Virus record (IMG/VR): IMGVR_UViG_3300025159_000321
Coordinates: 1-31,293 of that record
Source of the DNA: a virus
Reading direction: 5' to 3' (one strand)
Length of the DNA stretch: 31,293 nt
In this document: piece after piece, positions 162-19,382 of the stretch
Numbering within the stretch: position 1 is the first letter of the stretch
Layout of the letters: every line of letters starts with the position of its first letter
Program-made: the position numbers and the translations under genes
Notes under the pieces: model-generated
The model's database searches: none
What the model was told of the DNA's origin: nothing
What the model saw: the letters and a program-made list of their open reading frames with translations, nothing else

Positions 162-164
162 ACA

Positions 165-380: not shown

Positions 381-399
381 ATTTACCTCCTTTATTAGA

Positions 400-922: not shown

Positions 923-928
923 AATTTA

Positions 929-934
929 ATTATA
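929..934 (-). promoter_or_regulatory. -10 box TATAAT, 6 nt before the start codon at 922
   Basis: A perfect TATAAT on the minus strand ends 6 nt before ATG 922. No good -35 is present (TTCCGC at the 17-nt position), and the -35/spacer area is taken up by the interleaved inverted repeats at 939-997, so an activator or other factor might be needed. If used, the message would begin at or next to the start codon. Confidence 0.4.
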
Positions 935-938
935 ACTT

Positions 939-997
939 ATTTAGGGGCTCAGCGGAAGGTACTCCCGTGACTAAGCCCCTAAATCTAAGTACCTTCC
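939..997 (-). promoter_or_regulatory. Two interleaved perfect inverted repeats (possible pseudoknot)
   Basis: Arm 1 at 939-949 pairs with 974-984 (11 bp, ATTTAGGGGCT and its complement). Arm 2 at 954-963 pairs with 988-997 (10 bp, GGAAGGTACT and its complement). The arms alternate 1-2-1'-2', with gaps of 4, 10 and 4 nt, the order of an H-type pseudoknot. The element starts at the last base of the glycosyltransferase gene's stop codon and ends just before the -10 box of the next gene. Full pairing of both stems would be strained by the 4-nt gaps, so alternating hairpins or a DNA-protein site are also possible. Confidence 0.6.
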
Positions 998-1938
998 TAA
1001 AGGGGTTCTATATGAACTTCTTTTACTCTTTTAAATGGTCGTCTAATTCCATTATCATCTTTATAGTGGCCCCAGGGATCCATTTTTCTACCTTGATTAA
1101 GTTCTGGTGGCCAGAGTTCATCTAAGTTATTCCAACGCAGTTTTTCATCAAATATATTTAATTCCTTTGGTAAACTAGCTGCCTCATCTTTGCTCTTACC
1201 CCACCAGTGCCAGACCCATGATCTCATTGATGATACTAGACGATAATGAAATCTATCATCACACTCATCTCTTTCATCTGGCCAAGCACAAGAGTAGGCT
1301 CTGGCGTTGAGTGAATAATCTTCCCCCCCACCAGGGTAAAACTTCTCATCGAAATAACCTACTAAATCAAAGAACTCTCTCTTGAAGACAGGAAACCACA
1401 TTGCAATAGCGTCGATAACTCCTCTTTTGATAAGAGGAAAAGCCTCTGGTATGTCGCTAACTCTTTCTTTGAGATCTTCATAGTTTCCGCTGCAAAGATA
1501 GTTCCAATCTTCTTCTGTATATTCCTCCTTATATTCTATTATATCAATATACTCACCATGATCTCTACCATAGCCCCACAAAGGCACACGGGGACTCTCA
1601 GGGCATACTGCAAGTATTTTCTCATCAGTAGCAAATTCATCTAATATTCCTTGAAACCACTTACTTCCCATGAATTCCGTGTCGTCATTAAGTACTCCTA
1701 TATACGGAATACCCCATCTTACAGCGTGTATAATGCCTTCATTAGCGGCTTTTGCGAAGCCTAGATTGCGTGCTGGACGTAGATATAGGTGAAATCTTTT
1801 ATCGTAATATCCGTTGACTGTTTGATCTACCCCAATAACATAAAAACTATCCTTCTCAGTATGTTTGTACATTGTGTCCAAACACTTACCTACGTAATCA
1901 TCACGAATATAGGGCAAAACGATTGCTAGTTGACGCAT
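997..1938 (-). CDS. Family 2-type glycosyltransferase (GT-A fold)
   Basis: A 313-residue nucleotide-sugar-dependent glycosyltransferase. The N-terminal Rossmann-like strand (QLAIVLPYIRDDYVGKCLDT) leads to an N-LGFAKAANEGI segment (about residues 58-69) and a VLNDDTEF motif (near 82-89), the metal-binding DXD equivalent. The acceptor half has a GYFDEKFYPGGGEDYSLNAR block (near 193-212), which carries the ED motif typical of the catalytic base region in this family. An unusually Trp-rich stretch (SWVWHWWGKS) follows. It is the last gene of the glycan cluster. The start at ATG 1938 overlaps the previous stop (TAATG) and has an AAGGAG ribosome site 6-7 nt upstream. Donor sugar and acceptor are unknown. 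Confidence 0.85.
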   Translation of the reverse strand: MRQLAIVLPYIRDDYVGKCLDTMYKHTEKDSFYVIGVDQTVNGYYDKRFHLYLRPARNLGFAKAANEGIIHAVRWGIPYIGVLNDDTEFMGSKWFQGILDEFATDEKILAVCPESPRVPLWGYGRDHGEYIDIIEYKEEYTEEDWNYLCSGNYEDLKERVSDIPEAFPLIKRGVIDAIAMWFPVFKREFFDLVGYFDEKFYPGGGEDYSLNARAYSCAWPDERDECDDRFHYRLVSSMRSWVWHWWGKSKDEAASLPKELNIFDEKLRWNNLDELWPPELNQGRKMDPWGHYKDDNGIRRPFKRVKEVHIEPL

Positions 1939-2330
1939 TATTTTCTCCTTGCTCTCTGATTTCCTAACATATGTATACGCTTATGTTGGTAATCTGTTAG
2001 TAATTCTAGATTACTTATATTATTATTTTTCTTATCACCGTTTGAATGATGTATATGCTCTGTAGGTAATAATTCTCTACCTAAATGCTGTCCCATAACC
2101 CAGCGATGTTCCAGATAAACCTTCCCGTTGCGAATAATTATATTATATCCGCCATTGTGAGGGGTTTTAGCATTTTTCCAATTAGGTGCTTTTTCCCCAA
2201 GTAACCTACTTTTATTTTTGTACCAACATTTACGTGAGCAAAACTGACGCTTGTTAGAAATCCAATCTAGAAATTCTTTTTTACAGAAACTACAGATAGT
2301 TTTTATTTTATTCTTTACTGGTTTTGACAT
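1938..2330 (-). CDS. Free-standing HNH endonuclease (homing type)
   Basis: 130 residues. The N-terminal zinc cluster has CSFC near residues 13-16 and CSRKC near 31-35. The C-terminal HNH module has LEHRWVMGQHLGR, then EHIHHSNGDKKNNNISNLEL with the catalytic His pair and the Asn of the HNH fold, ending in HKRIH. This is the layout of phage HNH_3-type homing nucleases, which nick DNA and spread between phage genomes. It overlaps the deacetylase gene by 16 nt at its start and the next glycosyltransferase by the shared TAATG at its end, so it was inserted without breaking the operon. A GGGGGAA ribosome site precedes the start. It is the only gene in the 16.7-kb cluster without an obvious glycan role. 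Confidence 0.85.
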   Translation of the reverse strand: MSKPVKNKIKTICSFCKKEFLDWISNKRQFCSRKCWYKNKSRLLGEKAPNWKNAKTPHNGGYNIIIRNGKVYLEHRWVMGQHLGRELLPTEHIHHSNGDKKNNNISNLELLTDYQHKRIHMLGNQRARRK

Positions 2331-2968
2331 TTTAATTGTTCCCCCGACAATTCTCGTATCAATAAAAACTCGGTATTTTCATCCCAAGGAAAAGGATCCC
2401 ACTCTTCTTCCATCTGCCTCATCCCATTTCTACCTTTGGGATCTGATACATTTATATCTTCTACGTGTCCGTGAACCATCAAGGGATTGCAAGAACAGTA
2501 TGAAAGTAACCCTTCGGGTCGCTTTTCTCGATTGTAATGCTGATCCGCCACTTTGTATCCTCTTTCCATGAGAACGTTATATACCAACTGGGGGGAAGAG
2601 TTGACTGGTTTGGTTTGATCGGGAGTTTCATTATAAGGCTGGGGATAAGTGATTTGCCAGCCTGGAGCCTTAAAAATCTTAGAGAAGCCCATATTTTCTG
2701 CTCTCTGGAGAAAAATATTAGCTGTATTAGTATCCCACTTAAGAACCTCGAAATTATCATCGTGTCTAAATCCGTGAACTAAAAGGTCAATCCAATCCCT
2801 GTATGGATCAAGTAATTTAATAAAGTCCACCGTCATTCGACCAGGGATGGCGAACATATTTACTTTAAGTTTAGGGTACTTTGACTTCCAGTATAGCAGA
2901 TAGTTCATACCATTCCTGTCTGCTTTTACCTCTTGGTCGTCAAAGTCCAAGCAAATTGTCGTATTCAC
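2315..2968 (-). CDS. Polysaccharide deacetylase-like protein (NodB/CE4-type)
   Basis: 217 residues. The order of motifs matches the NodB-type deacetylases: LDFDD (7-11) for the catalytic/metal Asp, HGFRH (65-69) as the His-x3-His zinc pair, KAPGW (100-104) for the active-site groove, and LMVHGHV (163-169) for the later catalytic His. Such enzymes remove N- or O-acetyl groups from sugars. There is no signal peptide, so it would act in the cytoplasm on a precursor or finished glycan. It starts at a GTG (2968) behind AAGGAT and overlaps the preceding glycosyltransferase by 29 nt. Substrate unknown; the family assignment rests on these motifs only. Confidence 0.72.
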   Translation of the reverse strand: MNTTICLDFDDQEVKADRNGMNYLLYWKSKYPKLKVNMFAIPGRMTVDFIKLLDPYRDWIDLLVHGFRHDDNFEVLKWDTNTANIFLQRAENMGFSKIFKAPGWQITYPQPYNETPDQTKPVNSSPQLVYNVLMERGYKVADQHYNREKRPEGLLSYCSCNPLMVHGHVEDINVSDPKGRNGMRQMEEEWDPFPWDENTEFLLIRELSGEQLKCQNQ

Positions 2969-3902
2969 GCATCATCCTTTCGATGGAATAGTTATCTTCT
3001 ATGTATTTTCTAAGTTTTTTAGGTTCTTCTTTCGGTAAATGTAGCATCTCTATCGCCTCTTGATGGGTTTGATATAAATAATCGTGAGGCCATATATCTC
3101 TACTGCCATAAAAATCATTTACTACTGGAGTAATACCTTTAGCCATAGCCTCCCCAACAGCGTAACAAAAGGCTTCTTTCATACCTGGGTGGAGAAGTAC
3201 ATCTATATTCTCGTACCATGTATTCATATCATCTTGAGGCGGGTACAACGTAACTACTTTTCTCAATCCCCTACTTTCAATATAATGATTGTACATCACT
3301 TCCCAGTAAGGCGTACCGCCTTCATGTTGGCCTCTGATGTGTAATCGCCACTTTGGATTTTCTTTATACAAAGTATTAAATATATCCAACCCGCCCATAT
3401 GGTTCTTCGGCATCCACATATCCCCAAGCACCATACCTAACTGATAACCGTTAGTTTTCTTTTTCTTCAAGGTAAACTTCTCTAAGTTCACGGCTGGTCT
3501 TATTAATTTCAACTTGCCTTTCCAGCTAGGAGCTTTCTCCAAAATATACTTCTCAATGTGCGGTGCGATACATATTCCCTGGTCAATAAAATCTATGTAC
3601 TGCTGCTCGTAGAAGGGCACATAAGCGTTCCAAACATCCCAATCTATCATCCTACAAACTATCTTTGGCTTCTTGTTATTATCCCAATCTGGGGTTCTAC
3701 TTACCCCATCTACTCCATTATATAGTTTCCACAGGTAGTTGATATTTCCTTCAAGCCATTCCACGTAATAAATATCCGCCCATTGTGCCAGATACTCACT
3801 AGCTCCACGCTCATATTTAACCTCATGGCCTTTTTTCTCCCAATGGTCAATAATATCCTGACAGAATTTCTTACCTGTGTTATCTGCTACTGCTATACGC
3901 AC
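2940..3902 (-). CDS. GT4-type glycosyltransferase (GT-B fold)
   Basis: 320 residues. The N-terminal half begins MRIAVADNTGKKFCQDII and carries a WADIYYVEW strand. The C-terminal half has the donor-site signature: LHPGMKEAFCYAVGEAMAKG followed by ITPVVND, the E-x7-E motif of family 4 retaining transferases. A PAVNLEKF segment at the domain junction (about 135-142) is also typical of the family. It is GTG-started at 3902, with GGAG six nt upstream, and overlaps the preceding GT4 gene by 23 nt. It is shorter than many GT4 enzymes (350-400) but both domains appear to be there. Confidence 0.82.
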   Translation of the reverse strand: MRIAVADNTGKKFCQDIIDHWEKKGHEVKYERGASEYLAQWADIYYVEWLEGNINYLWKLYNGVDGVSRTPDWDNNKKPKIVCRMIDWDVWNAYVPFYEQQYIDFIDQGICIAPHIEKYILEKAPSWKGKLKLIRPAVNLEKFTLKKKKTNGYQLGMVLGDMWMPKNHMGGLDIFNTLYKENPKWRLHIRGQHEGGTPYWEVMYNHYIESRGLRKVVTLYPPQDDMNTWYENIDVLLHPGMKEAFCYAVGEAMAKGITPVVNDFYGSRDIWPHDYLYQTHQEAIEMLHLPKEEPKKLRKYIEDNYSIERMMREYDNLLGL

Positions 3903-4893
3903 GGGCTACTCCTTCCCTGAAAAACTCTCGCCACGCTGGTAATTGTTTTTCCCAAGTCCAATTCCGTTCTATTTCCAGCCTACCCAATTTACCCATATCT
4001 TTTCTGTCCTCTGGGTTGTCCCTCATAAAAATTACTGCCTCTTTTATTTTCTCAGCCATTGCATCTAAATCTTCTAAGTAAGAGGCTCTATTACCTTCAA
4101 TCAATACTCCCCCACCAGCCTCGGTAATTATATGGTCTATACCGCTATCGGTAGCTATAACAGGCACGGAGCAACTTGCTGCTTCTAGTGTCGGGAAAGA
4201 ATACCCAGGGTCGTGGTCGGCTCTAACCAGCACATCAAGTCGGTTGTATATATTAGGTATCCCAGGCCAGTATTTATCTCCCGCTACAATGTAGTTTAGA
4301 TTACCTCCCATAGCGTCCAGTTCCTTTTGATCTCTTGGAGCCATATTAGGAAAGAACATTAGCCTGATTCCTTCAACATCTTTAAGAGCTTTGACTACAT
4401 TAGGAACAGCACGTCTTGGGTTATATAAAGTTCCTACCATCCCCACGTGGAGTAAGTCATCTTCTCTAACCATCTTTATTGGCTTAAACAAATCTGTATC
4501 AATACCAAACCTTAGGGAATGGCATTTAAACCTAGCTTTCAACCCTTCTTCTGCTTTTGGAGTGGCTGCACCGTAACAAGCTATTGTTTCCCAAGATCCT
4601 TCACCAGGCTGATACCATACTTCACAGACTTTATGTTTATACTTTTCCGCTTCGGTGATTACCCAATGGCTTGCCAGCATTACAAAGATAAGGTCATAGT
4701 CATCAGGCGACCTCTGAAAAGGATTAGTTTCCGGAAACCTAGATAAGAAGTTTGTATATGGTGGGTAGGGTACATCCGCTACTTCAATAAAAAACTCATC
4801 AGATAAATGCCGAATTAGGTACTCGGCGTGAGCTTCCATATACCACCCTTTCATGGGAGGTACTATCAAGATTTTCGGCGGAGAACTATACAT
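3880..4893 (-). CDS. GT4-type glycosyltransferase (GT-B fold)
   Basis: 337 residues. It opens with KILIVPPMKGWYMEAHAEYL, a GT-B N-terminal strand and loop, then PYPPYTNF. The central RFGIDTDLFKPI is the common domain-linker motif (GxDxxxF) of family 4 transferases. The donor site reads HDPGYSFPTLEAASCSVPVI followed by ATDSGID, with the expected Glu. The C-terminus has RLEIERNWTWEKQ, also usual in the family. It sits between a methyltransferase (28-nt overlap) and another GT4 gene, within the glycan cluster. No clear ribosome site other than AAGG about 9 nt upstream, so translation is probably coupled to the gene before it. Confidence 0.88.
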   Translation of the reverse strand: MYSSPPKILIVPPMKGWYMEAHAEYLIRHLSDEFFIEVADVPYPPYTNFLSRFPETNPFQRSPDDYDLIFVMLASHWVITEAEKYKHKVCEVWYQPGEGSWETIACYGAATPKAEEGLKARFKCHSLRFGIDTDLFKPIKMVREDDLLHVGMVGTLYNPRRAVPNVVKALKDVEGIRLMFFPNMAPRDQKELDAMGGNLNYIVAGDKYWPGIPNIYNRLDVLVRADHDPGYSFPTLEAASCSVPVIATDSGIDHIITEAGGGVLIEGNRASYLEDLDAMAEKIKEAVIFMRDNPEDRKDMGKLGRLEIERNWTWEKQLPAWREFFREGVARAYSSSR

Positions 4894-5549
4894 ACATCAA
4901 AACCTTTTACTTCTTGACCAACACCTTCTGCTAATTCCATCAATTCAAAGTCTTTCTTGTTTTCAATCCACTCCATAACCTTTTTACGTGAATAATCATT
5001 AGTGTATTCGTCCTTATAAGTGTAACCTTGATCTACTATATGTTTAATTTCATGTTCATCACCTGCTCCCAACGGCCTCCAAAGCACGACTATTACTAAT
5101 TTCTTGGCTACTCGACAATGCTCATCCATAGCTTCCTCAAAGGAGTTCATATGATCTACTACGTGGCGAGAATAAACTACATCCCAGCTTTTATCTAGCT
5201 GGTCTATTTTGTGGATTGATGGATTAACTTCAAAAAATCCTCCAGGGTATTGCTCATCGCACCAATAAACATTTTTAGGAATAACATCTACGCCCTTATA
5301 AAAAAGATGTTTATAAGGTCTGTCTTCCCAATCAAAATGTATATTTAGTAAATACCAATCGTCAGATTTTAAAGCCTCGAAGGTGGTGGCACTACCACAA
5401 CCATAGTCTAAGAAACTCATACCAGGCTTTACATATTTCTTAATCGCATAAAGCTGACTGGGGTGGTTTGGCCCGTTACCACCACCCCTACAAAGAGTAG
5501 GTACGTCTGGGGTATTGAACCATAGTTCTTTTGGATTTACTTTTGACAT
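4866..5549 (-). CDS. Class I SAM-dependent methyltransferase
   Basis: 227 residues. The SAM-binding motif I reads MSFLDYGCGSATTFEAL. A WDVVYSRHVVDHM segment corresponds to motif IV and the following helix, and a VAKKLVIVVLWRPL strand ends the fold. It resembles the methyltransferase at 10502-11128, which has matching DVGCG, MHTLDHL and VIIILWRSF segments, so the two are likely paralogues. It overlaps both neighbours in the glycan cluster. O- or N-methylation of a sugar is the likely job by context, but the substrate cannot be read from the sequence. No ribosome site is visible before the start, so translational coupling is assumed. Confidence 0.82.
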   Translation of the reverse strand: MSKVNPKELWFNTPDVPTLCRGGGNGPNHPSQLYAIKKYVKPGMSFLDYGCGSATTFEALKSDDWYLLNIHFDWEDRPYKHLFYKGVDVIPKNVYWCDEQYPGGFFEVNPSIHKIDQLDKSWDVVYSRHVVDHMNSFEEAMDEHCRVAKKLVIVVLWRPLGAGDEHEIKHIVDQGYTYKDEYTNDYSRKKVMEWIENKKDFELMELAEGVGQEVKGFDVCIVLRRKS

Positions 5550-6049
5550 TCTAGTATTAATTTTGCTTCTGTTGGACGTTCTGGCAATACTCCTTTTTCA
5601 ATTTTTACTTCTTTAAAGTCGTGCTTTTCAAATAATGTTTTTAATGTTTCTTGCGTGTATATATATTTATGCGTTTGAGGCCCGCCATAACCATACATAT
5701 CTTCAATCACCTTAGCCTTATTAGTAGGGTATTCTTCCATCAATACATCCATATCAGGAGTACTTATTCTTATTTTTCCACCATTAATCAAAACTCTTTT
5801 CCAATCATCTAATACTTTATTAACTTCAAACATATCAAAATGTTCAAGTAATTCATAGGCTTCGATAATCTCAACCACACTTTCTTGAAATGGCAATCCA
5901 TTTCTAATGTCCCAAAGCATATCAGTACCCCCATAAACATCAATATCAATATTAATGTAACCATCAAGCCAATAATCACCGCAACCCAAATGTAATTTAA
6001 TACCCCTACCTTCTGGTCTTAAATAATGCTTTATGGTAGAGAATTCCAT
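5537..6049 (-). CDS. Class I SAM-dependent methyltransferase
   Basis: 170 residues from ATG 6049. This start has a GAAAGGAAGAG ribosome site; a longer in-frame extension to 6124 lies inside the preceding gene and adds nothing conserved. Motif I is IKLHLGCGDYWLDGYINIDI, typical of small methyltransferases encoded in LPS and glycan clusters. A DIRNGLPF segment, EAYELLEHF (motif IV area) and LINGGKIRISTPD (the post-motif strand) follow in the usual order. It overlaps the CgeB-like gene by 19 nt. Substrate unknown; sugar methylation is suggested by neighbours. Confidence 0.82.
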   Translation of the reverse strand: MEFSTIKHYLRPEGRGIKLHLGCGDYWLDGYINIDIDVYGGTDMLWDIRNGLPFQESVVEIIEAYELLEHFDMFEVNKVLDDWKRVLINGGKIRISTPDMDVLMEEYPTNKAKVIEDMYGYGGPQTHKYIYTQETLKTLFEKHDFKEVKIEKGVLPERPTEAKLILECQK

Positions 6050-6993
6050 TCTCTTCCTTTCGCTAAATAATTTTCTATTAGTTCTCCTAATTGAGTCATA
6101 CGGCAAGCAGATGTATACTCCCAATGCTCGCTATCACAATCTTGGTCAGGTATATCTTTTAACATTTCTATAGCCTCTTTTGGGGTACTAAAAAAACCTA
6201 TAGTTGGACAAGGTATCAGTAATTCCATTCCTGGGGCGTATTGCTGACACAACCTTCCCCCAGCCCGAAGCACTTTACCTACTCGATTACTCCAATAACC
6301 CCAACAATTAGGATTGACACTAAATCCTAATACTACCTTACTTCTAGCTATTAACGCATTATATGCAGCACCATAAACCGCAGGAACAGCATCAAAGCCT
6401 TCTTTTTTCCACTCCTCGTGATTCCAAGAAAATATCTTGATGGGTATTTCCTTATTGATTTCCTTAAGGAAGGGAACTCTATCACCTTGCTGTAAGTAAC
6501 TCCCAGTAAATACCACGTCATATTCTTTTGGTGACCCTTTGAAAGTAGGCAAATCGCCATCACAAACATCCATCTGGAAATAACAAGGCTTTACTTCTTG
6601 TTTTACATATTCAGGGAAAAGTCCTCCTTCTCCTGATAAATATAAATCGGCCGCTTGAGCCATTTTAATATGCCAATCTGGAAAGCCTTGATCCCACATG
6701 TAATCCCATACCCAGTAGAAAACGGGAGCTTCTGATAGTCCCCGAAGTTTGTCAATAAAGCTCCCGTCATAAAAATGGTGCCATTTACAGATAATATTTA
6801 TATCCGCTTTCAAATCCTCTGGTACGTCATACTTACCTTTGGGAAAGTTCTCTATTACATACTCACGCCAGGCATCTCTAGGTATCCTACGGACTGTATT
6901 TCCTAGCCTTTCCAGTTCTCTGGATAGATGTACTTCGTCTGCCTCTTCGCCCACATATCCTTGGGCATAATTACCTACAAAGTTTATGGTCAT
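6031..6993 (-). CDS. CgeB-like glycosyltransferase (GT-B type)
   Basis: 320 residues. The opening MTINFVGNYAQGYVGEEADE followed by HLSRELERLG is a GT-B style start. The middle has APVFYWVWDYMWDQG and DVVFTGSYLQQGDRVPFLKE. The C-terminal half has YNALIARSKVVLGFSVNPNC and NRVGKVLRAGGRLCQQ, matching the layout of CgeB/DUF3880-type transferases, where a small invariant-like set of residues replaces the classical E-x7-E. It is joined to the methyltransferase before it by an ATGA overlap. Without a search the CgeB assignment is moderate, though a glycosyltransferase role is well supported by fold pattern and context. Confidence 0.68.
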   Translation of the reverse strand: MTINFVGNYAQGYVGEEADEVHLSRELERLGNTVRRIPRDAWREYVIENFPKGKYDVPEDLKADINIICKWHHFYDGSFIDKLRGLSEAPVFYWVWDYMWDQGFPDWHIKMAQAADLYLSGEGGLFPEYVKQEVKPCYFQMDVCDGDLPTFKGSPKEYDVVFTGSYLQQGDRVPFLKEINKEIPIKIFSWNHEEWKKEGFDAVPAVYGAAYNALIARSKVVLGFSVNPNCWGYWSNRVGKVLRAGGRLCQQYAPGMELLIPCPTIGFFSTPKEAIEMLKDIPDQDCDSEHWEYTSACRMTQLGELIENYLAKGREWNSLP

Positions 6994-7538
6994 CTTTTAA
7001 TCCCCCAAAAAGAAGTAAAACCATCATCATAAGGATTTAAACCTAAGTAATAGTCACTAAATAATTCCTCTGGATTTGTATAAACAGTTCTAATGTCATC
7101 AGGCGTTACGTTACGATAGTAATCTCCCCATTTTTTACTAATCTTTGTTGTATACGATTGTTCTGGAGATGTTCTATTAGTCCCATGTTCTTCCCAATTA
7201 GAGGGACAATTAAATAGAATTAAACCACCTGGTCTAGTAAGTTCTAACATTTTCTTTAAGGTCTTCTTCCAATACATATCATGCTCAAGTTCTGAAAAAG
7301 AAATAACCGCATCAAACGAATTTGGTTCTCCTTTATACTTATGAGCAATCGAAACTATGTCAACATTTGCTGATTCGTGAACATCAAGTTTTAAATATTC
7401 TCTGCAATTAGGGAACACACCATCTTTTGACTCAATCGCTGCTCCTATTTCTAAAATTCTCGCATTATCAAAAATACTACTGAACTTGTCAACCATTTCT
7501 CTAAGCCATTTATGTTCCGAACGGGATCCAGCCATCAT
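6990..7538 (-). CDS. Class I SAM-dependent methyltransferase
   Basis: 182 residues. Motif I is NARILEIGAAIESKDGVFP, an atypical form with GAA in place of GCG. It continues as EYLKLDVHESANVDIV (motif II, acidic end of strand 2) and DAVISFSELEHDMYWKKTL (motif IV and helix), then TRPGGLILFNCPS. The order and spacing fit a small Rossmann methyltransferase. ATGA overlaps tie it to the genes on both sides. By context it could methylate a sugar hydroxyl; no substrate-specific feature is visible. Confidence 0.78.
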   Translation of the reverse strand: MMAGSRSEHKWLREMVDKFSSIFDNARILEIGAAIESKDGVFPNCREYLKLDVHESANVDIVSIAHKYKGEPNSFDAVISFSELEHDMYWKKTLKKMLELTRPGGLILFNCPSNWEEHGTNRTSPEQSYTTKISKKWGDYYRNVTPDDIRTVYTNPEELFSDYYLGLNPYDDGFTSFWGIKR

Positions 7539-8071
7539 TTCCTCACCCTCACAATTTTTCCACCAATAACTTCTTTATTATTCCCATAGTGCTCATCAAG
7601 CCATCTTTTAACATCTGGATGGTCGTAGTCGTGGAAAAGAATTATACCATTAGGCTTTACCATTTCTTCCCACCTTTCGGTATTTTTTCTTACTGATTCA
7701 TAGTCGTGGTGTCCATCAATAAACATCAAATTTACAGAAATTCGTGCCATAAAAAAGGCAAATTCATCAGCATCTCCATGCACATAGAATCCCTTTTTAC
7801 CTATTCCTACCATACCTTCCTGCTCCATCCAAGGTGCTCTGCCGATGCTCTTTTCGTGGGGCACTACATCGTGAATATCTATAAATAATTTATACACATC
7901 AGGGTGAGCGTATTCGTGCAATACTCTAGCACTTTTACCTTCATCTACTCCAATTTCTACATATACATCCCCTGGCTTTAGCTTCTCGGCTTCCTCTTTC
8001 ATTACGTCAAATTCAGAGAATACGCCTTGGATATGTTTAGTTATGTGAGTATCTAATTCTTCAAAGTTCAT
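7535..8071 (-). CDS. Methyltransf_24-type SAM methyltransferase (copy 2)
   Basis: 178 residues. The SAM site reads GDVYVEIGVDEGKSARVL. The later block NLMFIDGHHDYESVRKNTER, then PNGIILFHDYDHPDV, carries the paired Asp/His residues seen in TylF/macrocin O-methyltransferase-type enzymes, where they bind a divalent metal and the acceptor hydroxyls. The gene immediately upstream (8068-8580) has the same layout, and the pair look like a tandem duplication that has diverged. ATGA overlaps join it to both neighbours. Sugar O-methylation is the best guess from the family and the setting. Confidence 0.82.
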   Translation of the reverse strand: MNFEELDTHITKHIQGVFSEFDVMKEEAEKLKPGDVYVEIGVDEGKSARVLHEYAHPDVYKLFIDIHDVVPHEKSIGRAPWMEQEGMVGIGKKGFYVHGDADEFAFFMARISVNLMFIDGHHDYESVRKNTERWEEMVKPNGIILFHDYDHPDVKRWLDEHYGNNKEVIGGKIVRVRK

Positions 8072-12646: not shown

Positions 12647-13319
12647 ATGCCTCCATCTGGTCAAATTGCTTTACATACTCTGCTAATTCTGGATTGTGTT
12701 TTTGCATCTCTGGTGTAAATTCTTTTTTGTAACCCCAGTTATCACCGAAAGGATGGTAGGCTCTAAGCCTAGTGGTTCTACCTGTTTTCCAGCCATTAGT
12801 TTGCAACCTACTACAAATCCACCTTTCTTCGTTATTTCTTCCCGAACTTATTTTATGCTCCCAACCACCAGCTTGCCTTACCGCCTCGGTTCTCATTATT
12901 CTCATTACCGCCCCACACATATTTACTTCTTTTACATCCTCTGGATCTTTGGGGTCAAAACCAGCCGCTCCAATAAGAATATGAGGATGTAAACTGATAG
13001 CTCCATAATCTGGTCTATCATCCATAAATTGGATCATTTGGTTAAGCCAATCTGGATCTGTCTGCGGTACATAAATATCATTATCGGAAGTTATAAAATA
13101 TTCGGATTCCGCTAATGCCAAGGCTATATTCCATGCAGAGTGTATGCCTACATTCTCCGATAATCCAACGTATAAATCCACCTCATCCTTAAATTCTTCA
13201 TTTCCACCGTTGTCAATAATCGTCAGTTTGTATGGGGTTTTGGTGCGCTCTTTCAAATACTTAATTGTATTTGCAGTGAAATGTTGTCTTAGAAATGTGG
13301 TCAGGAATATGTCTATCAT
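12618..13319 (-). CDS. Family 2-type glycosyltransferase
   Basis: 233 residues. MIDIFLTTFLRQHFTANTIK, then KLTIIDNGGNEEF is the beginning of the GT-A fold. NVGIHSAWNIALALAESEYF and ITSDNDIYVP provide the donor site with an SDND metal motif. A GAVMRIMRTEAVRQAGGWE block follows, where GT2 enzymes contact the acceptor, and NNEERWICSRL may give the acidic base. It is joined to the GT2 gene before it by an ATGA overlap with GGAG upstream. No membrane segment. Donor and acceptor unknown. Confidence 0.84.
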   Translation of the reverse strand: MIDIFLTTFLRQHFTANTIKYLKERTKTPYKLTIIDNGGNEEFKDEVDLYVGLSENVGIHSAWNIALALAESEYFITSDNDIYVPQTDPDWLNQMIQFMDDRPDYGAISLHPHILIGAAGFDPKDPEDVKEVNMCGAVMRIMRTEAVRQAGGWEHKISSGRNNEERWICSRLQTNGWKTGRTTRLRAYHPFGDNWGYKKEFTPEMQKHNPELAEYVKQFDQMEAYDNQTWLPK

Positions 13320-14116
13320 TCGACTCCTTGTTTGGGGTGCACGACATACAAAAATTCATCATCTATCGGTTTACTATGATATTTCCTTGTATACTTGTAA
13401 AAGAGAGCGTGGTCATTTCCCCAGGGGTTACCTAATTCTTTTATTATTTTGTTGGGCTCTGCTTCATGATCCACCATAAAAAATTGCCTTTGCTCAGGAA
13501 ACTCTAATTGAAACCAAGCCGAAAAATCGTATGGACTTCCGATATATAAATCCCTAACACCACCGTAATTTATTTCTGTACAGTCTATATCCTTAATATG
13601 CGTAGAAGGATAAGCTCCCAAGTCATCATAAACACTCCTATGCCAAACAAACGTCCCATTAACTATATTTCCACCACCAAACACCTCATGGCCTACTTTT
13701 AATTTCTTGGGTCTAAAGGCACCTCTCAAAGCATTACCGCCATCTGCGTGAACATATCTGGCTCCGAAGTTAAACATTTTATACTTAGGCCACTTTCTAA
13801 AAAAGTAATCCACTCGTTCCAAATAGTGTGGTTCGTATTCATCATCAGAGTCTAGTAGGCAGAATATCTGTCCTTGAGCGTGCTTGAAGCCTTCATTCAA
13901 GGCCACTACTCGTTCATTATGAGGTACATTTACCACGTTCAGTCTTGGATAGGGCGGTATTTCAAAGTCTTGAGTGCTGCCATCATTGACTACGATATGC
14001 TCATAATCTCTAAAGGTTTGAGCCTCAACGCTATCTATAGCCCTTTTTAGACTCTCTTTCCTATAATTATTCCAAATATTTACTGGAGTTATTACACTTA
14101 TTCGTAAATTAGCCAT
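13316..14116 (-). CDS. Family 2-type glycosyltransferase
   Basis: 266 residues with very typical GT2 features: ISVITPVNIW, RAIDSVEAQTFRDYEHIVVN followed by DGSTQD, NERVVALNEGFKHAQGQIFC, and LLDSDDEYEPHYLER, with DSDD as the metal-binding DXD. It continues with NIVNGTFVWHRSVYDDLG. The match in the first 110 residues is strong; the later part (YIGSPYDFSAWFQLEFPEQ) is less familiar and may define the acceptor. It begins 1 nt after the RmlA-like gene ends. Cytoplasmic. Donor not determinable. Confidence 0.88.
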   Translation of the reverse strand: MANLRISVITPVNIWNNYRKESLKRAIDSVEAQTFRDYEHIVVNDGSTQDFEIPPYPRLNVVNVPHNERVVALNEGFKHAQGQIFCLLDSDDEYEPHYLERVDYFFRKWPKYKMFNFGARYVHADGGNALRGAFRPKKLKVGHEVFGGGNIVNGTFVWHRSVYDDLGAYPSTHIKDIDCTEINYGGVRDLYIGSPYDFSAWFQLEFPEQRQFFMVDHEAEPNKIIKELGNPWGNDHALFYKYTRKYHSKPIDDEFLYVVHPKQGVE

Positions 14117-14117
14117 A

Positions 14118-14828
14118 TTATAATTGATATTCTTGGCGTTGTCCGAGCCATCCTACAGTCCTCCAAAGTGAGTGTGGCGTTCCTGCATCTGACCAGAAAC
14201 AACCTTCTAAATAATTAACCAACATTTCCCCCTTCTCCAAGTAAGCGTTATTTACATCAGTTATTTCTAACTCGCCTCTTTTTGACGGTTTCAAGGTTTG
14301 GATTATATCAAATACGTCTGGGGGATAAATATATAAACCAGTCACAGCCCACTCCGACTTTCCATCTTTAGGTTTTTCTACTATTATTCCTTCTGACAAC
14401 ACACCAAATCTTTCGGGATCAGGCACCTTTTTAACGAATATCTGAGCCCTAGTTTTATCTTCGTGTATACTTAACACTTCATTATCAAAAATATTGTCTC
14501 CTAAAATAACCATTAATGGTTCGTTACCCACAAAATCTTTAGCCAACCCCAAAGCCTGGGCTATACCACCAGCCTCCTTTTGAATCTTATAGGTAAGATT
14601 AACCCCGAACTCCGAACCATCACTCAAATATTCAGCAAAGCCCCCAATATGTTCACCGCCAGATACAATCAGAATATCTTCGACCCCAAACTTTTTTAGT
14701 GTTTCTAATGGATAAGTAATCATTGGAATATTTAATAATGGTATAAGGTGCTTATTTACTACCTTAGTAGCTGGCAATAACCTAGTTCCCTGACCACCCG
14801 CCAACAAAATTCCTTTCATGCTCCCCAT
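14118..14828 (-). CDS. Sugar-1-phosphate nucleotidyltransferase, RmlA-like
   Basis: 236 residues, the short form of the glucose-1-phosphate thymidylyltransferase family, which joins a sugar-1-phosphate to a nucleotide (dTDP in the best-known members) and releases pyrophosphate. Signature MKGILLAGGQGTRLLPATK includes the nucleotide loop GxGTRL. Later EAGGIAQALGLAKDF, VILGDNIFD with the catalytic Asp, DPERFGVL, GELEITDVNNAYLE and FWSDAGTPHSL all match RmlA order. The start is ATG 14828 (AAGGAG just upstream) or ATG 14819, where the family's usual MKGI beginning lies. With the dehydrogenase, epimerase and PLP enzyme it forms the activated-sugar branch of the cluster. Confidence 0.88.
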   Translation of the reverse strand: MGSMKGILLAGGQGTRLLPATKVVNKHLIPLLNIPMITYPLETLKKFGVEDILIVSGGEHIGGFAEYLSDGSEFGVNLTYKIQKEAGGIAQALGLAKDFVGNEPLMVILGDNIFDNEVLSIHEDKTRAQIFVKKVPDPERFGVLSEGIIVEKPKDGKSEWAVTGLYIYPPDVFDIIQTLKPSKRGELEITDVNNAYLEKGEMLVNYLEGCFWSDAGTPHSLWRTVGWLGQRQEYQL

Positions 14829-15589
14829 TTCTCCTTGAATTTTTCTCTGCTTTCGTTCATCAAATCTGGTGTTTCTACCATTCCCGTGCTAGTACCCCCA
14901 ATCACATGGTAGGTATTTACCTTTTTAGTACTGGCGTATTTTTTACCTGCTTCATCCATTCTTTTGAGAAAATCTAAATCTTCTAAATAAACAAAAAACT
15001 GCTCATCAAAAGTTCCAATTTCTCTAAAAAGGGATTTTCTAGCCAAAACGCAGGAAAAGTCCCGAAAATCACTAAAAGCCTCTCTAAAATCCCGGCCCTC
15101 CCAAAGTTTTGCCTTATCAGAAGCCTCCACAGCCCTAGAAAATGGTTCACCGTACATAGGGGTCGCCATAACTAGGTCAAGGTCTTGTAGAGCCTCCTGC
15201 AACCCCTCAAGCCAAGAGTCAAAAACCATAGTGTCATTATTAAGCAAGCAAACATATTCGCCACTACTAACTCTAATTGCTTGGTTCCAAGCAGCGGCTA
15301 TTCCTTTATTTTCCTCATTTTGGATAACTTTATCCGCTTTATAATCGGATAATCTTTGAGGCTTTATCGGAGAACCATTGTCGACAAGAATAATTTCATA
15401 AGGTAATTTTGTGTGTTCCCTTACCGAACCTATGCAATTACCTGTGTAATGAAACAAAGGATAGTTGAGGTTATGGCAAAGGATAATTATTGAAGTTAAT
15501 CCTGCGACTTCGCTAGGGTTATCAGCAACATTTTGTTGGCTATCAACAGTAGTCCACGTTTCTTGGGTGCTAGTTTCCGTATCCTGCAT
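14816..15589 (-). CDS. Family 2-type glycosyltransferase
   Basis: 257 residues. A ~30-residue polar N-terminal extension rich in Thr, Ser and Gln precedes the GT-A fold, which begins LTSIIILCHNLNYPL. Donor-site segments follow: PYEIILVDNGSPIKP, NKGIAAAWNQAIRVSSGEY and CLLNNDTMVF, with NND as the metal motif. FVYLEDLDFLKRMDEAGKKY holds the ED acid pair common in rhamnosyl- and galactosyltransferase-type GT2 enzymes. AGGAGG precedes the start; it overlaps the dehydrogenase gene by 20 nt and the nucleotidyltransferase gene by 13 nt. Confidence 0.88.
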   Translation of the reverse strand: MQDTETSTQETWTTVDSQQNVADNPSEVAGLTSIIILCHNLNYPLFHYTGNCIGSVREHTKLPYEIILVDNGSPIKPQRLSDYKADKVIQNEENKGIAAAWNQAIRVSSGEYVCLLNNDTMVFDSWLEGLQEALQDLDLVMATPMYGEPFSRAVEASDKAKLWEGRDFREAFSDFRDFSCVLARKSLFREIGTFDEQFFVYLEDLDFLKRMDEAGKKYASTKKVNTYHVIGGTSTGMVETPDLMNESREKFKEKWGA

Positions 15590-16325
15590 TTATCCTCCTT
15601 ACAGTTTCTAATAATTCACTTTTACTAAAATTAGCAAATGCTTCTAGGTCTTTGGGCAAACATTTACCACCTGCACCTTTGTGGCCTTTATGACCTACGT
15701 AAAAGTGGTGCTGGCTTCCCCAGGGGTGTTCCAGCAACCTATCTCTAATATAGGTGTAATTTGCACCTATTTTCTGCGCAATATCATTCATCTCCTCGGC
15801 AAAGACCACTTTCAAAGCAAAAAAGCTGTTAAAAACATATTTAGTCATTTCGGCAGTTATTGTATCCGTCATTTTAGGTTGAAGGTATTTATACCTAGCA
15901 TCATAAATAGCTTTTACCTCATTACCGTAGTTTGGACTATCAGCTCCAATTACTACCATTGAGGGTCTTTTGGCATCTAGTTCCCATCGGCTTTCGGTAA
16001 GAAATTCTGGGTTGGAAACTACCCTATCCATATTCATATTTTCCATAATGGCTCTGGCAGTTCCTGGAATTACTGTGGAGCGGATAATGTAGAGGGGATT
16101 CGCCCTTATCCCCTCAATTTGCTTTATAGTGTCCCTGATTGCCCCTGTATCACAGGTACCTTCCTTGGTAGGCGTGGGCAAACAGAGAAAAACGTAGCGG
16201 CAATTTGCAGCATCATTTAAGGTTATATTGCTATCTCCGTTTATATCAAAATGTTTGGTTATTCCAAAAGCTAGGGCGGTGGCACGTCCTACGACTCCAA
16301 ATCCGATTATGCAAGAATTGTCCAT
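15570..16325 (-). CDS. UDP-glucose/GDP-mannose dehydrogenase-like protein lacking the C-terminal domain
   Basis: 251 residues; full-length family members have about 390-450. Present: NAD site CIIGFGVVGRATAL, CLPTPTKEG, IRSTVIPGTARA, SNPEFLTE, and the central helix AEMTKYVFNSFFALKVVFAE followed by EMNDI with the conserved Lys/Asn/Glu. The catalytic Cys222 lies in GAGGKCLPKDLEAF. The protein ends about 30 residues later, so the C-terminal UDP-binding domain is absent. The catalytic residues are intact, so it may still oxidise a nucleotide sugar to its uronic acid, perhaps using another chain for nucleotide binding. It begins 2 nt after the first gene of the cluster. Confidence 0.82.
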   Translation of the reverse strand: MDNSCIIGFGVVGRATALAFGITKHFDINGDSNITLNDAANCRYVFLCLPTPTKEGTCDTGAIRDTIKQIEGIRANPLYIIRSTVIPGTARAIMENMNMDRVVSNPEFLTESRWELDAKRPSMVVIGADSPNYGNEVKAIYDARYKYLQPKMTDTITAEMTKYVFNSFFALKVVFAEEMNDIAQKIGANYTYIRDRLLEHPWGSQHHFYVGHKGHKGAGGKCLPKDLEAFANFSKSELLETVRRINAGYGN

Positions 16326-16327
16326 AT

Positions 16328-17647
16328 TTAGTAAAGTAGAGGCTCAAGCTCTTTCTTGAAAATTGTATCGAGGTTTCTTTCTTTTCTTAATTTCGTAGCT
16401 AGAGCCATCTCTGGATGTTGTAATCTGGCCGATATCGCACCTGCTGTACCGTAGTGATAATCTTTTTCATATTTCTTTCTTTCTTCATCAGATACATTCT
16501 GAGGCCCGTAAGCGGTATTGGTATTGCCATCCATAGCGTTCATTATGTCTATATTGCTCGAATACTTCCTAAATATGGCGTTTTCACCAAATATATCTCT
16601 AAATGGCGGAAAGTCAAAGTTAAGTACCACTACCTGTTTAGTCAATCCCGCCTCTTGGGTAATAAGAGAATAGCTTTCACTAGCCGAAGGCATAATAAAT
16701 ACATTGGAAAGAAGCTGGAAATCTCTTACCACACTTTGAGGCACTTCTACCTTCCAATTCTCGTTTTCTTCGCTGGTAAAGGTAATTTCGTTGCTGTTTA
16801 GGCCATAATCTATGGCTATCTGTTTTAGTTCTTCCCGATAAGTAATCTTATCCCCACCTGTAGAGTGGAAATCAATTATTATTACTCTTACCGATAGGTC
16901 AAAGTCTTTCAGTTTAGCCATTGTTTTGATAACATACTGAACCTGTTTACCTCTATCCAGCCTTATTGGATAAGTAGTAATAGCGTCTGCTGAGAGTATC
17001 TTTTTCCTATCAACCACCTCTTGTACTTCTTTACTTATACCTAAAAATCCGCAAACATCAGTTGGGTGATGGACTACTTTCACCAGTGCATCACTTACCC
17101 CAAAGTTCTCGGCTATTCTGGGTATTGAATAATGATTAAAGAAAACATAGTAGGAGTTGGGGAAGGGTTTTTGGACTAAATCAGTATATTCGCTACCAAA
17201 ATCACGCAACGCTCCTAAAGTAACAGGAGAAGTAGCCGAGTGTATCCAATGCAGCCATCTGACGTTTTTCTTGGCTGCGATTCTTCTTGAAGCAAAGTTA
17301 TGTTTAAGGTGGGCTGGCTGATAAATAATATCGTGGGTCAGTACTACGCTACCGTCAGTAATTATCTCATCCAGCCTTCTTTCAATATTAGCCACATCTT
17401 CATCAAAACTGGGGTCTTTTTTTATCTCATTATGACAAGGAACTAGGGGTATCTTTTCTATAGTTACATCTGGGTGGGCATACATCTGGTCTGGCTGGAA
17501 ACTTTCCTGGACAATAACAGTAACTTTATACCCGTTACGGGTAAACATCTTTATTTGGTCTTGGACTACTCTATTAAGACTGTAGGCTTCGCTAATTTCT
17601 GAAAATGCGGTAAATAAAATGATTTTCTTGGAGTCAGTACCTTCCAT
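16328..17647 (-). CDS. GT4-type glycosyltransferase, first gene of the glycan cluster
   Basis: 439 residues from ATG 17647; an in-frame TTG at 17656 overlaps the -10 box and is unlikely. The N-terminal domain begins KKIILFTAFSEISEAYSLNR with DQIKMFTRNGYKVTVIVQES; later VVHHPTDVCGFLGIS is the domain junction, TTYPIRLDRGKQVQYVIKTM starts the donor domain (the family's R-x4-K area), and MPSASESYSLITQEAGLTKQ is the donor-binding E-x7-E site. It is the largest transferase here and may start or extend the glycan. A promoter (TTGACA, 17 nt, TAGATT) ends 7 nt before the start, suggesting a leaderless message. Confidence 0.88.
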   Translation of the reverse strand: MEGTDSKKIILFTAFSEISEAYSLNRVVQDQIKMFTRNGYKVTVIVQESFQPDQMYAHPDVTIEKIPLVPCHNEIKKDPSFDEDVANIERRLDEIITDGSVVLTHDIIYQPAHLKHNFASRRIAAKKNVRWLHWIHSATSPVTLGALRDFGSEYTDLVQKPFPNSYYVFFNHYSIPRIAENFGVSDALVKVVHHPTDVCGFLGISKEVQEVVDRKKILSADAITTYPIRLDRGKQVQYVIKTMAKLKDFDLSVRVIIIDFHSTGGDKITYREELKQIAIDYGLNSNEITFTSEENENWKVEVPQSVVRDFQLLSNVFIMPSASESYSLITQEAGLTKQVVVLNFDFPPFRDIFGENAIFRKYSSNIDIMNAMDGNTNTAYGPQNVSDEERKKYEKDYHYGTAGAISARLQHPEMALATKLRKERNLDTIFKKELEPLLY

Positions 17648-17654
17648 CACTATC

Positions 17655-17683
17655 AATCTAACAAACTATTGCTTATCTGTCAA
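17655..17683 (-). promoter_or_regulatory. Leftward promoter of the glycan cluster
   Basis: TTGACA (17678-17683) and TAGATT (17655-17660) are separated by 17 nt on the minus strand. The -35 is perfect and the -10 matches 4 of 6. It sits in the 48-nt gap between the last head-type gene and the first glycosyltransferase, so the cluster can be transcribed apart from the head genes. The predicted start of transcription falls at the start codon. Confidence 0.6.
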
Positions 17684-17695
17684 TGTCCTATAATA

Positions 17696-18019
17696 CTAAT
17701 CGTACACTATAAATGCTTCTCCATTAAAGGGGGCTCCTTGCTCTAGTTCTACATAAAGTCCCCTTGTCATATTTATTGGCCTAGCAGGAGTAAAACAGGT
17801 GCTTTCACCTGTATTAGCAGCCACCACAAAAGCGTCTGCCGAAGGAGCAGGTTCAGCCGCACCATTAGCCGAGTCATATACTCTTACCGCTGCAGCCGAA
17901 CCACCAGCAGTAATTACAACAGCAATCACCTCTATGCCACCCGCAGTTGAAAGTTGTTTGCTGGTTTCGTTGCTGGTTAGAGTATATTTATATCTGGCTC
18001 TGCTAGGTTTGTTTATCAT
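17696..18019 (-). CDS. Small virion-type hypothetical protein, 107 aa
   Basis: Unrecognised by name. It has alternating hydrophobic/small residues (GGIEVIAVVITAGGSAAAVR, then VYDSANGAA) and ends GLYVELEQGAPFNGEAFIVY, the pattern of a single beta-sandwich found in many small phage head or tail accessory proteins. It sits between the Ser/Thr-tract genes and the glycan cluster. No ribosome site is clear; it begins 3 nt after the previous stop. A structural role is suggested by position and composition only. Confidence 0.6.
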   Translation of the reverse strand: MINKPSRARYKYTLTSNETSKQLSTAGGIEVIAVVITAGGSAAAVRVYDSANGAAEPAPSADAFVVAANTGESTCFTPARPINMTRGLYVELEQGAPFNGEAFIVYD

Positions 18020-18022
18020 AGA

Positions 18023-18469
18023 TTAAAAATGACCTGGCTTTCTCTTAAAGGAACTCATAAATTCATCATCAGTCTGTAAACCTTCGCCATACCAAGGAAT
18101 CCCATCTCTATCGGTTCCTTCTCCTTGGGGTATCCCGTCAGGGTCAACTAGTCTGGCCGCCTTTTCTCTATCAGAAAATTCCTGTGGAGTAATGAACTCC
18201 TGGCCTTCTTCTGCTTTTGGTTCTTCAGTATGCTGTTTCTCGTGTTGTATCACCGCCACTTTATAGTCGTTAGCATAATCTCCATACTTACAAGTAAATT
18301 TACCTTCCAGTTTCACTTCTTCCAACCAAGGGTAAGTCTGTTGCAATCTATTAGCCACAGGGTTATCGAAAGTTTTAGTTTCCCCTAAACCAAGAGCGTA
18401 CATTTTCTTCTGGAATAAAAAGTCTTTTATTGGTGCTCCTTTTTCCTTCGAGTTAGTTAATGTAATCAT
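18023..18469 (-). CDS. Hypothetical protein, 148 aa
   Basis: Unrecognised. The first ~75 residues look globular (MITLTNSKEKGAPIKDFLFQ, with NRLQQTYPWLEEVKL and FTCKYGDYANDYKVAVI), with the rest polar and Glu/Asp/Gly rich (EEPKAEEGQEF, then DPDGIPQGEGTDRDGIPWYG), probably flexible. DGIP occurs twice. ATAGGAG lies at the normal distance before ATG 18469. It is the gene directly after the three Ser/Thr-tract proteins and may belong to the same virion set. Confidence 0.62.
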   Translation of the reverse strand: MITLTNSKEKGAPIKDFLFQKKMYALGLGETKTFDNPVANRLQQTYPWLEEVKLEGKFTCKYGDYANDYKVAVIQHEKQHTEEPKAEEGQEFITPQEFSDREKAARLVDPDGIPQGEGTDRDGIPWYGEGLQTDDEFMSSFKRKPGHF

Positions 18470-18476
18470 AATTCTC

Positions 18477-18749
18477 CTATAAAGTAGTAGTTGTGCTGGT
18501 AGTAGTACTAGTAGATGTCGAGGTACTAGTAGAGCTACTGGTACTGGTAGTCGTTGTACTGGTACTCGTAGTAGTCGTGGAAGTTGATGTACTGGTAGTC
18601 GTCGTTACATCCCCAAATACCCACTGTGTACCGTTATAAACTACCCACTGGTTAGTATCATTTTTGAAAAAGAAATCACCCTCCAACGGTTCGGCTGGAA
18701 AGGTTGTCTGGACTCTTCTTTTGCTTTCAAATGAACTAAATCTAGTCAT
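18477..18749 (-). CDS. Ser/Thr-tract protein, paralogue 3 (90 aa)
   Basis: Two parts. Residues 1-48 form a small domain (FSSFESKRRVQTTFPAEPLE, then GDFFFKNDTNQWVVYNGTQW), a version of the GD-x-(Y/F)-x-N-x-x-x-N-x-W-x-x-Y-x-G-x-x-W unit common in phage appendage proteins. Residues 49-89 are only Thr and Ser, ending in Leu. Such a tail has no hydrophobic core and would be extended; it resembles eukaryotic mucin domains in composition and offers about 40 hydroxyl groups for O-glycosylation. It follows paralogue 2 by 3 nt. The Ser and Thr codons are mixed (ACN, TCN, AGY). No signal peptide. Confidence 0.75.
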   Translation of the reverse strand: MTRFSSFESKRRVQTTFPAEPLEGDFFFKNDTNQWVVYNGTQWVFGDVTTTTSTSTSTTTTSTSTTTTSTSSSTSTSTSTSTTTSTTTTL

Positions 18750-18752
18750 AAT

Positions 18753-19025
18753 TTACCCCGTAGTCGAAGTACTAGTACTGGTTGATGTACTGGTAGTAGT
18801 ACTTGTACTTGTAGTAGTAGTACTAGTACTCGTACTCGTACTTGTTGTCGTACTTGTGCTAGTACTCGTAGTGCTAAAAACATAAACCAACCAGTTATTA
18901 CCCGAATATCTAGCCCAAGCGTTAGTACTGGTATTGAAATACTCATCACCAGATATTGGCCCGGTCGGGTCGCTTGTCGCTGTTCGTATTCTTCCCTTTA
19001 GATTGCTTAAATGTGTGTCAGCCAT
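18753..19025 (-). CDS. Ser/Thr-tract protein, paralogue 2 (90 aa)
   Basis: Residues 1-50: MADTHLSNLKGRIRTATSDP, then PISGDEYFNTSTNAWARYSG and NNWLVYVF, the same small domain as in the neighbours (shared L-x-G-R/H-I/L-x-T-x-T-x-(D/N)-P and GDEY-N). Residues 51-89: Ser and Thr only, with a final Gly. AAGGAT lies at the right distance before ATG 19025. As one of three tandem copies just after the major capsid gene, it is probably a head or neck accessory protein made in quantity. The tail is a candidate acceptor for the phage's own glycosyltransferases (inference). Confidence 0.77.
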   Translation of the reverse strand: MADTHLSNLKGRIRTATSDPTGPISGDEYFNTSTNAWARYSGNNWLVYVFSTTSTSTSTTTSTSTSTSTTTTSTSTTTSTSTSTSTSTTG

Positions 19026-19034
19026 AGTTTATCC

Positions 19035-19382
19035 TTATATAGTCGTAGTAGTACTTGTACTAGTAGTCGTGGTACTGGTGCTAGTCGTAGTCGTACTGGT
19101 GCTGCTACTGGTGCTGGTTGTACTGGTGCTAGTCGTAGTCGTACTGGTGCTGCTACTGGTGCTGGTTGTACTCGTGCTTGTTGTTGATGTACTGGTAGTC
19201 GTTGTCGACGTTGACGTTGTGCTAGACTGCGCAAACGCCAAACCTCGCCATTGAACACCATCCCATCTCATCCAAGTATTCTGGGTAGTATTGTAGTATT
19301 CATCCCCCACGTCAGGGCTGCTTGGGTTTCCTGTTCCTGTTTTTAGATGTCCTCTTAAACTTGATACTTTAGTTGTTGGCAT
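19035..19382 (-). CDS. Ser/Thr-tract protein, paralogue 1 (115 aa)
   Basis: Residues 1-52: MPTTKVSSLRGHLKTGTGNP, then SSPDVGDEYYNTTQNTWMRW and DGVQWRGLAFAQ, the shared head domain. Residues 53-114 are Ser and Thr only, 62 in a row, with a final Ile. It is the longest of the three, partly because of an exact 48-bp tandem duplication (19072-19167) that adds 16 residues to the tract. It is the first gene after the major capsid protein, with GGAG before its ATG and a strong hairpin between the two genes. The small domain probably anchors it to the virion, with the tract projecting outward (inference). Confidence 0.78.
   Translation of the reverse strand: MPTTKVSSLRGHLKTGTGNPSSPDVGDEYYNTTQNTWMRWDGVQWRGLAFAQSSTTSTSTTTTSTSTTSTSTTSTSSSTSTTTTSTSTTSTSSSTSTTTTSTSTTTTSTSTTTTI
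19072..19167. repeat. Exact 48-bp tandem duplication in a Ser/Thr tract
   Basis: Positions 19072-19119 are repeated base for base at 19120-19167. The unit is a multiple of 3 and keeps the frame, adding 16 residues of Thr/Ser. The lack of any mismatch indicates a recent event, probably replication slippage or unequal crossing-over, and suggests that tract length varies between related phages. Confidence 0.9.

Follow-up and report, generated by a model that had tools for sequence, protein, structure and literature searches.

Ser/Thr-tract proteins paired with a glycosyltransferase cluster in uncultured phages: candidate scaffolds of a mucin-like coat

Animal mucins carry very long Ser/Thr domains with dense O-glycans, and their PTS domains are proline-rich and tandemly repeated. 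In the bacterial cytosol, O-glycosylation of a long Ser/Thr polypeptide is started by a GT4 enzyme in the GtfA/GtfB system, whose substrates, the serine-rich-repeat adhesins, are cell-surface proteins exported by SecA2. Autonomous glycosylation has been described for chloroviruses and Mimivirus (PMC4691112), and the fibrils of Megavirinae are treated in PMC10117803. Among phages, the mycobacteriophages Che8, Corndog and Myrna encode glycosyltransferases (GTs) that glycosylate virion proteins, according to the accounts of Freeman 2023 given in PMC12363180 and PMC12619734, which name the C-termini of capsid and tail-tube subunits as acceptors. Here, we analyse IMGVR_UViG_3300025159_000321, a viral record of 31,293 bases (the window, i.e., the whole stretch under analysis) that is probably a fragment of a phage genome. 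Directly behind its major capsid gene, three small proteins end in tails made of Ser and Thr only, and a large cluster of GTs and other sugar enzymes accompanies them. We consider it likely that the phage's own Ser/Thr scaffolds are O-glycosylated in the cytosol by a self-contained system encoded at this locus, which would give a mucin-like coat.

Ser/Thr tails and the selection acting on them

The minus strand carries all head genes and the glycan cluster, as well as all window features given below unless stated otherwise. Three tandem genes directly follow the capsid gene (19447–20364). The first (19035–19382) encodes 115 aa, namely an N domain of about 50 residues, 62 Ser/Thr residues (tail at 19041–19226) and a closing Ile; the second (18753–19025) and third (18477–18749) encode 90 aa each, with the N domain followed by 39 Ser/Thr residues and Gly (tail at 18759–18875) or by 41 and Leu (tail at 18483–18605). 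Each tail is composed of Ser and Thr alone up to that single last residue, just as the original prediction had described for lengths of 62, 39 and 41. Since Ser plus Thr makes up 9.8% of the 34 other window proteins, whose longest Ser/Thr run is 3, the chance of such a tail is about 1e-40 or less for each of them. Relatives with capsids of 57% identity or more also have tandem Ser/Thr-tail genes directly behind the capsid gene; tails orthologous to that of protein 1 measure 55–99 aa in relatives, and relatives whose records have matching ends retain the tails. The N domain is a small beta structure of about 50 residues; its fold repeatedly, if weakly, matches phage tail-fibre and decoration proteins. 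Searches of the N domain against the PDB with phmmer and hmmsearch returned nothing useful, and a single mixed alignment of all N domains was too diverse for a profile scan. In a more distant relative (L015 and L018, major capsid protein 47% identical), a Ser-rich tract protein with runs of 25 and 16 replaces the three tails, accompanied by a GT4 at 38% identity and GT2 genes; this arrangement is an intermediate form.

Tails 2 and 3 were compared among 11 orthologues in which they measure 39 and 41 residues, leaving out phages with other tail lengths, which also exist; for tail 2, 39 residues is the length in most orthologues. The third base differs at 72% of Thr–Thr comparisons and transversions reach 45%, near saturation, and Ser codons change box (TCN versus AGY) in 46–47% of comparisons. 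The identity of the residue as Ser or Thr differs in only 14% of comparisons for tail 2 and 11% for tail 3, where random placement expects 48% and 46%, and tail 3 shows zero substitutions to any other residue. Because length and identity are conserved while codons are randomised, selection acts on the protein, including the positions of Ser versus Thr. Such position-by-position conservation is unexpected. Runs also follow a grammar, in which Ser occurs preferentially in runs of 1 or 3 and Thr in runs of 1, 3 or 4, with runs of 2 avoided, and no proline occurs in the 2,570 tail residues counted. As a separate observation, Ser/Thr linkers in unrelated phages (contigs L024–L142) tend to alternate single Ser with Thr and to avoid Ser–Ser pairs; their run grammar is similar to that of the tails, the common preference being for single Ser. 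Because the codons are randomised, we reject DNA-level repeats as an account of the tracts.

A fourth Ser/Thr-tail gene had been predicted as broken, with a tract of 44 residues. The truncated tract is there (457–591, 45 residues, in a frame without a start codon, followed by a C-terminus that closes at a stop codon near 401 and reads ...VPYPINVERSDLVIGVGV), and it is the remnant of a giant protein. Its C-terminus, VPYPINVER, is common to two intact proteins of relatives: G010_016, with 1,606 aa of which 1,566 (98%) are Ser or Thr, and its orthologue G002_052, with 1,122 aa and 96% Ser/Thr. G010_016 begins with MARLLRSYG..., continues as a tract of about 1,560 Ser/Thr residues with three interruptions and ends in ...VPYPINVERSDLVIGVTV. 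We therefore identify the fourth tract, by its shared C-terminus, as the end of a giant Ser/Thr protein. The window had allowed a view of only part of the system: besides these proteins of more than 1,000 residues, relatives encode further Ser/Thr-rich proteins, including a conserved short one with a Ser/Thr tail beside the adaptor gene. At the left end of the window (1–1000), a G002_049-like sequence runs directly into the last part of the tract, skipping two genes, and this junction may be a deletion or an assembly collapse. A truncated tract that may come from collapsed assembly would be expected if the tracts were low-complexity DNA or assembly artefacts, but contigs from many samples agree in length and in Ser/Thr order while their codons are randomised, and no repeated 48-mers occur in the DNA of the giant genes (1,122 and 1,606 aa). 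Already contradicted by these observations, this is the least credible explanation that we considered.

Pairing of tracts and glycan genes within and beyond the clade

Tail-bearing records of at least 20 kb nearly always carry several genes of the GT2 family: 12 of 13 have 3–8, and the thirteenth (G001) has one at its broken end. Random viral records of the same minimum length have any GT2 gene in 2 of 24 cases and three or more in none, and none was present in records where a similar N domain lacks the tail (0/10, six of the ten being under 20 kb). All records with the N domain and tail share capsid and terminase and represent one phage clade.

For phages outside this clade, a Thr-anchored Ser/Thr DNA pattern provided an unselected sample of tract-bearing viral contigs. 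At 20 kb or more, at least three GT2 genes were present in 5 of 10 contigs with a run of at least 40 residues, compared with 1 of 43 whose runs were shorter (p = 0.0005). A more general rule, that any Ser/Thr linker accompanies a GT cluster, was rejected, as short linkers are mostly found without one. Three of the sampled contigs, without a relative of the window capsid (G121, G112 and G102), encode homologues, at 47, 32 and 31% identity, of the window's GT4 retaining glycosyltransferase (16328–17656, Pfam Glycos_transf_1), our candidate for a tract-initiating polypeptide O-glycosyltransferase.

The reverse search, with this GT4 as the sole query, returned 56 viral loci, and a mixed Ser/Thr run of at least 15 residues occurs in 51 of them within the locus stretch examined. 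Fifteen of the 56 have no relative of the terminase, portal or capsid, and a capsid model that finds distant relatives elsewhere had no match in the whole records of those 15. Runs of at least 15, extending up to 371 residues, are nevertheless found in 12 of these 15 head-unrelated loci, versus 1 of 58 random viral loci (p = 3e-10) and 0 of 28 loci around generic phage GT2 genes, these last being on average shorter than the GT4 loci and the controls not perfectly length-matched. Several of the association sets are small. Still, the pairing of a Ser/Thr tract with GT4 and glycan genes is strongly supported, and the expectation that the two would co-occur beyond chance is borne out both within the clade and in phages without a related capsid.

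It could be argued that the Ser/Thr proteins work unglycosylated, as entropic bristles or fibres, and that their pairing with sugar genes stems from a host lineage or habitat in common. Indeed, many phages that lack a GT cluster have Ser/Thr linkers, and the alternating run pattern of those linkers is similar. A bristle, though, requires no more than disorder and hydrophilicity, whereas here the Ser and Thr positions are conserved one by one over randomised codons, and it is the long tracts, not the short linkers, that accompany GT clusters. We regard this explanation as improbable. The alternative that we favour, an O-glycosylation system acting on the tracts, is probably portable between phages, judging from gene distribution: in a tree of the GT4, phages with other heads form at least two groups (probably three), one of them nested among the window's relatives, a grouping that movement of GT4 plus tract between phages would produce.

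The sugar-building cluster and a proposed coat mechanism

Assignment by Pfam backs the ten GTs, four sugar-nucleotide enzymes and six methyltransferases originally predicted between the tracts, with two of the GTs (997 and 6031) falling slightly below the curated cut-off. The genes overlap one another tightly. Nearest to the tails, beyond two genes of no known family (a conserved one at 18023–18469 and a small one at 17696–18019), lies the GT4 at 16328–17656. It is followed by a UDP-glucose/GDP-mannose dehydrogenase-type enzyme (15570–16325), a GT2 (14816–15589), an RmlA-type sugar nucleotidyltransferase (14118–14828, Pfam NTP_transferase), for which no homologue was found in the relatives compared, and two further GT2 genes (13316–14116 and 12618–13319). 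An NAD-dependent sugar epimerase/dehydratase (11765–12664), a GT2 (11109–11768), an S-adenosylmethionine-dependent methyltransferase (10502–11164), a DegT/DnrJ/EryC1 sugar aminotransferase (9399–10517) and a GT2 (8567–9427) come next. Then there are three methyltransferases (8068–8778, Methyltransf_24/TylF-like; 7535–8071, Methyltransf_24; 6990–7538), the GT1/GT4-like enzyme just under the cut-off (6031–6993), two more methyltransferases (5537–6124, a weak match, and 4866–5549) and two GT4 genes (3880–4893 and 2940–3902). The cluster closes with a GT2 just under the cut-off (997–1938). Between these lie a conserved protein at 2315–2968, present in relatives, and an HNH endonuclease (1938–2330, Pfam HNH_3) that had gone unmentioned and is probably a homing gene inside the sugar cluster. 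The conserved protein had been called a deacetylase, an identity that we could not confirm: it has no Pfam match at E ≤ 5 and no PDB match. In G010, a module of about 12 genes is present twice in the glycan cluster (G010_068–079 versus G010_001–012); such duplication is a way to diversify glycans.

Host serotype change by phage GTs is known (stated in PMC12619734), and a study of groundwater Patescibacteriota phages reads phage sugar genes as host-surface genes (PMC12911398). The cluster could likewise remodel the host surface, by O-antigen or capsule conversion or for superinfection exclusion, with the Ser/Thr tails as unrelated flexible spacers. What we observe fits this poorly. No convincing transmembrane helix was found in 92 cluster proteins of four genomes (one borderline case sits at an extended start), which argues against lipid-linked O-antigen chemistry and leaves no Gtr, Wzx, Wzy or WbaP-type member. 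The tyrosine integrase family PF00589 is absent from 12 of 12 records in a search whose control matched in 14 of 14 and which did not extend to serine integrases. The cluster is also located between capsid and tail genes on one strand, and Ser/Thr tracts accompany its GT4 across phages but not generic GT2 genes. We hence hold host remodelling to be unlikely, if still the strongest of the competing explanations.

Another possible target is phage DNA, given that hypermodification of DNA by GTs of viruses is known (Pyle 2024, as cited in PMC12619734). A Tet/JBP dioxygenase, which would create a hydroxylated base, was found in 0 of 15 records, a weak negative because no control genome matched, in a search that did not extend to hydroxymethylases. 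DNA glycosylation would, moreover, leave the conserved tracts and their link to GT4 unexplained, and we give it very little credence.

We hypothesize instead that phage proteins are glycosylated in the cytosol, because of the selection on the tails and the absence of membrane GTs and of a tyrosine integrase. No enzyme of the cluster is nearer to the tails than the GT4 at 16328–17656, which is also one of the cluster's best-conserved members, with 58–94% identity across most of the clade. In the structure model, it is a two-domain GT-B enzyme (pLDDT 85) whose best fold matches are MshA and other generic retaining GT4s. No PDB chain matched its sequence at E ≤ 0.001 (phmmer and hmmsearch), and an alignment of very distant GT4s was too diverse for a profile scan. 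Given the position and conservation of this gene, the missing membrane helices and integrase and the N-domain folds, it is reasonable to propose that the GT4 initiates the glycan on the tracts, that the other GTs extend it and that the methyltransferases finish it.

The gene content, the pairing and the selection on the tracts as Ser/Thr sequences are direct observations; from there, we infer how enzyme and acceptor are related, in what order the steps occur, where on the particle the product sits and what it is for. The small N-domain/Ser/Thr-tail proteins, the adaptor-side Ser/Thr-tail protein and one or more giants would be made as late proteins, and the GT4 would put the first sugar on their tracts. 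GT2 and GT4 enzymes would extend the glycan, using charged or amino sugars that the dehydrogenase, nucleotidyltransferase, epimerase and aminotransferase may supply, and methyltransferases would finish it. The product would be a mucin-like coat of bottle-brush form covering head, neck and tail, which could serve for shielding, adhesion to surfaces or hydration. More tentatively, with the odds somewhat against it, the GT4 could be a new polypeptide O-glycosyltransferase that moves with Ser/Thr scaffolds whose Ser/Thr order is a positional code, resulting in a templated glycan brush.

Several points weigh against the proposed coat. Glycosylation of the tails is itself a prediction from genes and sequence, and the acceptor specificity of the GT4 would not be readable from so generic a GT-B model. 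The placement of the tails on the virion rests on gene order and on the weak fold matches of the N domain. As the tail-bearing records belong to one lineage, their pairing with GT2 genes does not amount to 13 independent events. Finally, three of the 15 head-unrelated GT4 loci, as well as L294 and L308, have no tract of at least 15 residues in the stretch examined.

The phage group, its possible host and its place among known systems

The head genes of the window comprise, besides the major capsid gene (Pfam Phage_capsid_4/Mu-like gpT), an SU10-type portal (22839–25058, Pfam SU10_portal, PF23899) and a large terminase, TerL (25063–26562, Pfam Terminase_6C). Relatives encode an SU10-type adaptor (PF24175 in G002) and a beta-helix tail-spike-like protein, and the closest isolate capsid is 36% identical to that of the window. 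On these grounds, we assign the window to an SU10-like podovirus group without close isolates; the group is uncultured. Two relatives have matching record ends and are probably complete: G002 (48,850 bp, 75-bp direct terminal repeat) and G020 (51,215 bp, 124 bp). A third record, G010, measures 63,603 bp. On the plus strand of the window, an open reading frame at 29465–30112 resembles a cytosine-C5 methyltransferase (PPC-type motif by eye) and has no Pfam match.

A hint of the host comes from L248, a 4-kb contig of a Candidatus Zambryskibacteria metagenome-assembled genome, which carries a capsid relative (61%) and the start of a Ser/Thr-tail gene. No capsid relative of that kind was found in 379 other genomes of the phylum of Ca. 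Zambryskibacteria, and the GT4 family was found in none of the genomes of that phylum. The capsid gene of L248 is split (2046–2264 and 2998–3723) by an insertion of about 700 bases, such as an intron or mobile element would cause.

A quarter or more of the phage genome seems to be devoted to a dedicated acceptor scaffold together with a complete sugar pathway, and phages with unrelated capsids show the pairing as well. Phage virion glycosylation has been documented in a few mycobacteriophages, with structural proteins as acceptors, and a literature search that covered few subscription papers found no description of phage Ser/Thr-tract scaffolds paired with GT clusters. If correct, our proposal would mean a further class of mucin-like glycoproteins in bacteria. 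For glycoengineering, it would offer a candidate polypeptide glycosyltransferase whose substrate is simple, and a Ser/Thr tract beside this GT4 would become a sequence rule by which to find sugar-coated phages in metagenomes. The positional conservation of Ser versus Thr is directly testable.

Compared with the mycobacteriophage system, the likeness lies in phage-encoded GTs, ten of them here, with virion decoration proposed from the genes. The acceptors differ, being structural proteins in mycobacteriophages and separate, dedicated Ser/Thr scaffolds adjoining the capsid gene here, and so does the equipment, which here comprises about ten GTs together with sugar-nucleotide synthesis and methyltransferases. 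The capsid and tail-tube proteins of Che8 have no Ser/Thr run longer than 2, and the window GT4, the one enzyme compared, had no tblastn match at 1e-3 in Che8 or in the rest of 50,697 isolate phage records. Chloroviruses and Mimivirus are eukaryotic giant viruses, but they similarly encode both the synthesis of activated sugars and the GTs for a surface glycan. With GtfA/GtfB, the proposed system would share a GT4 that starts O-glycosylation of a long Ser/Thr polypeptide, the GT4 here being a candidate initiator of generic GT-B fold. Unlike the domains of mucins, the tracts have no proline and essentially no repeats; like them, they form long Ser/Thr domains, which in the largest protein account for nearly its entire length.

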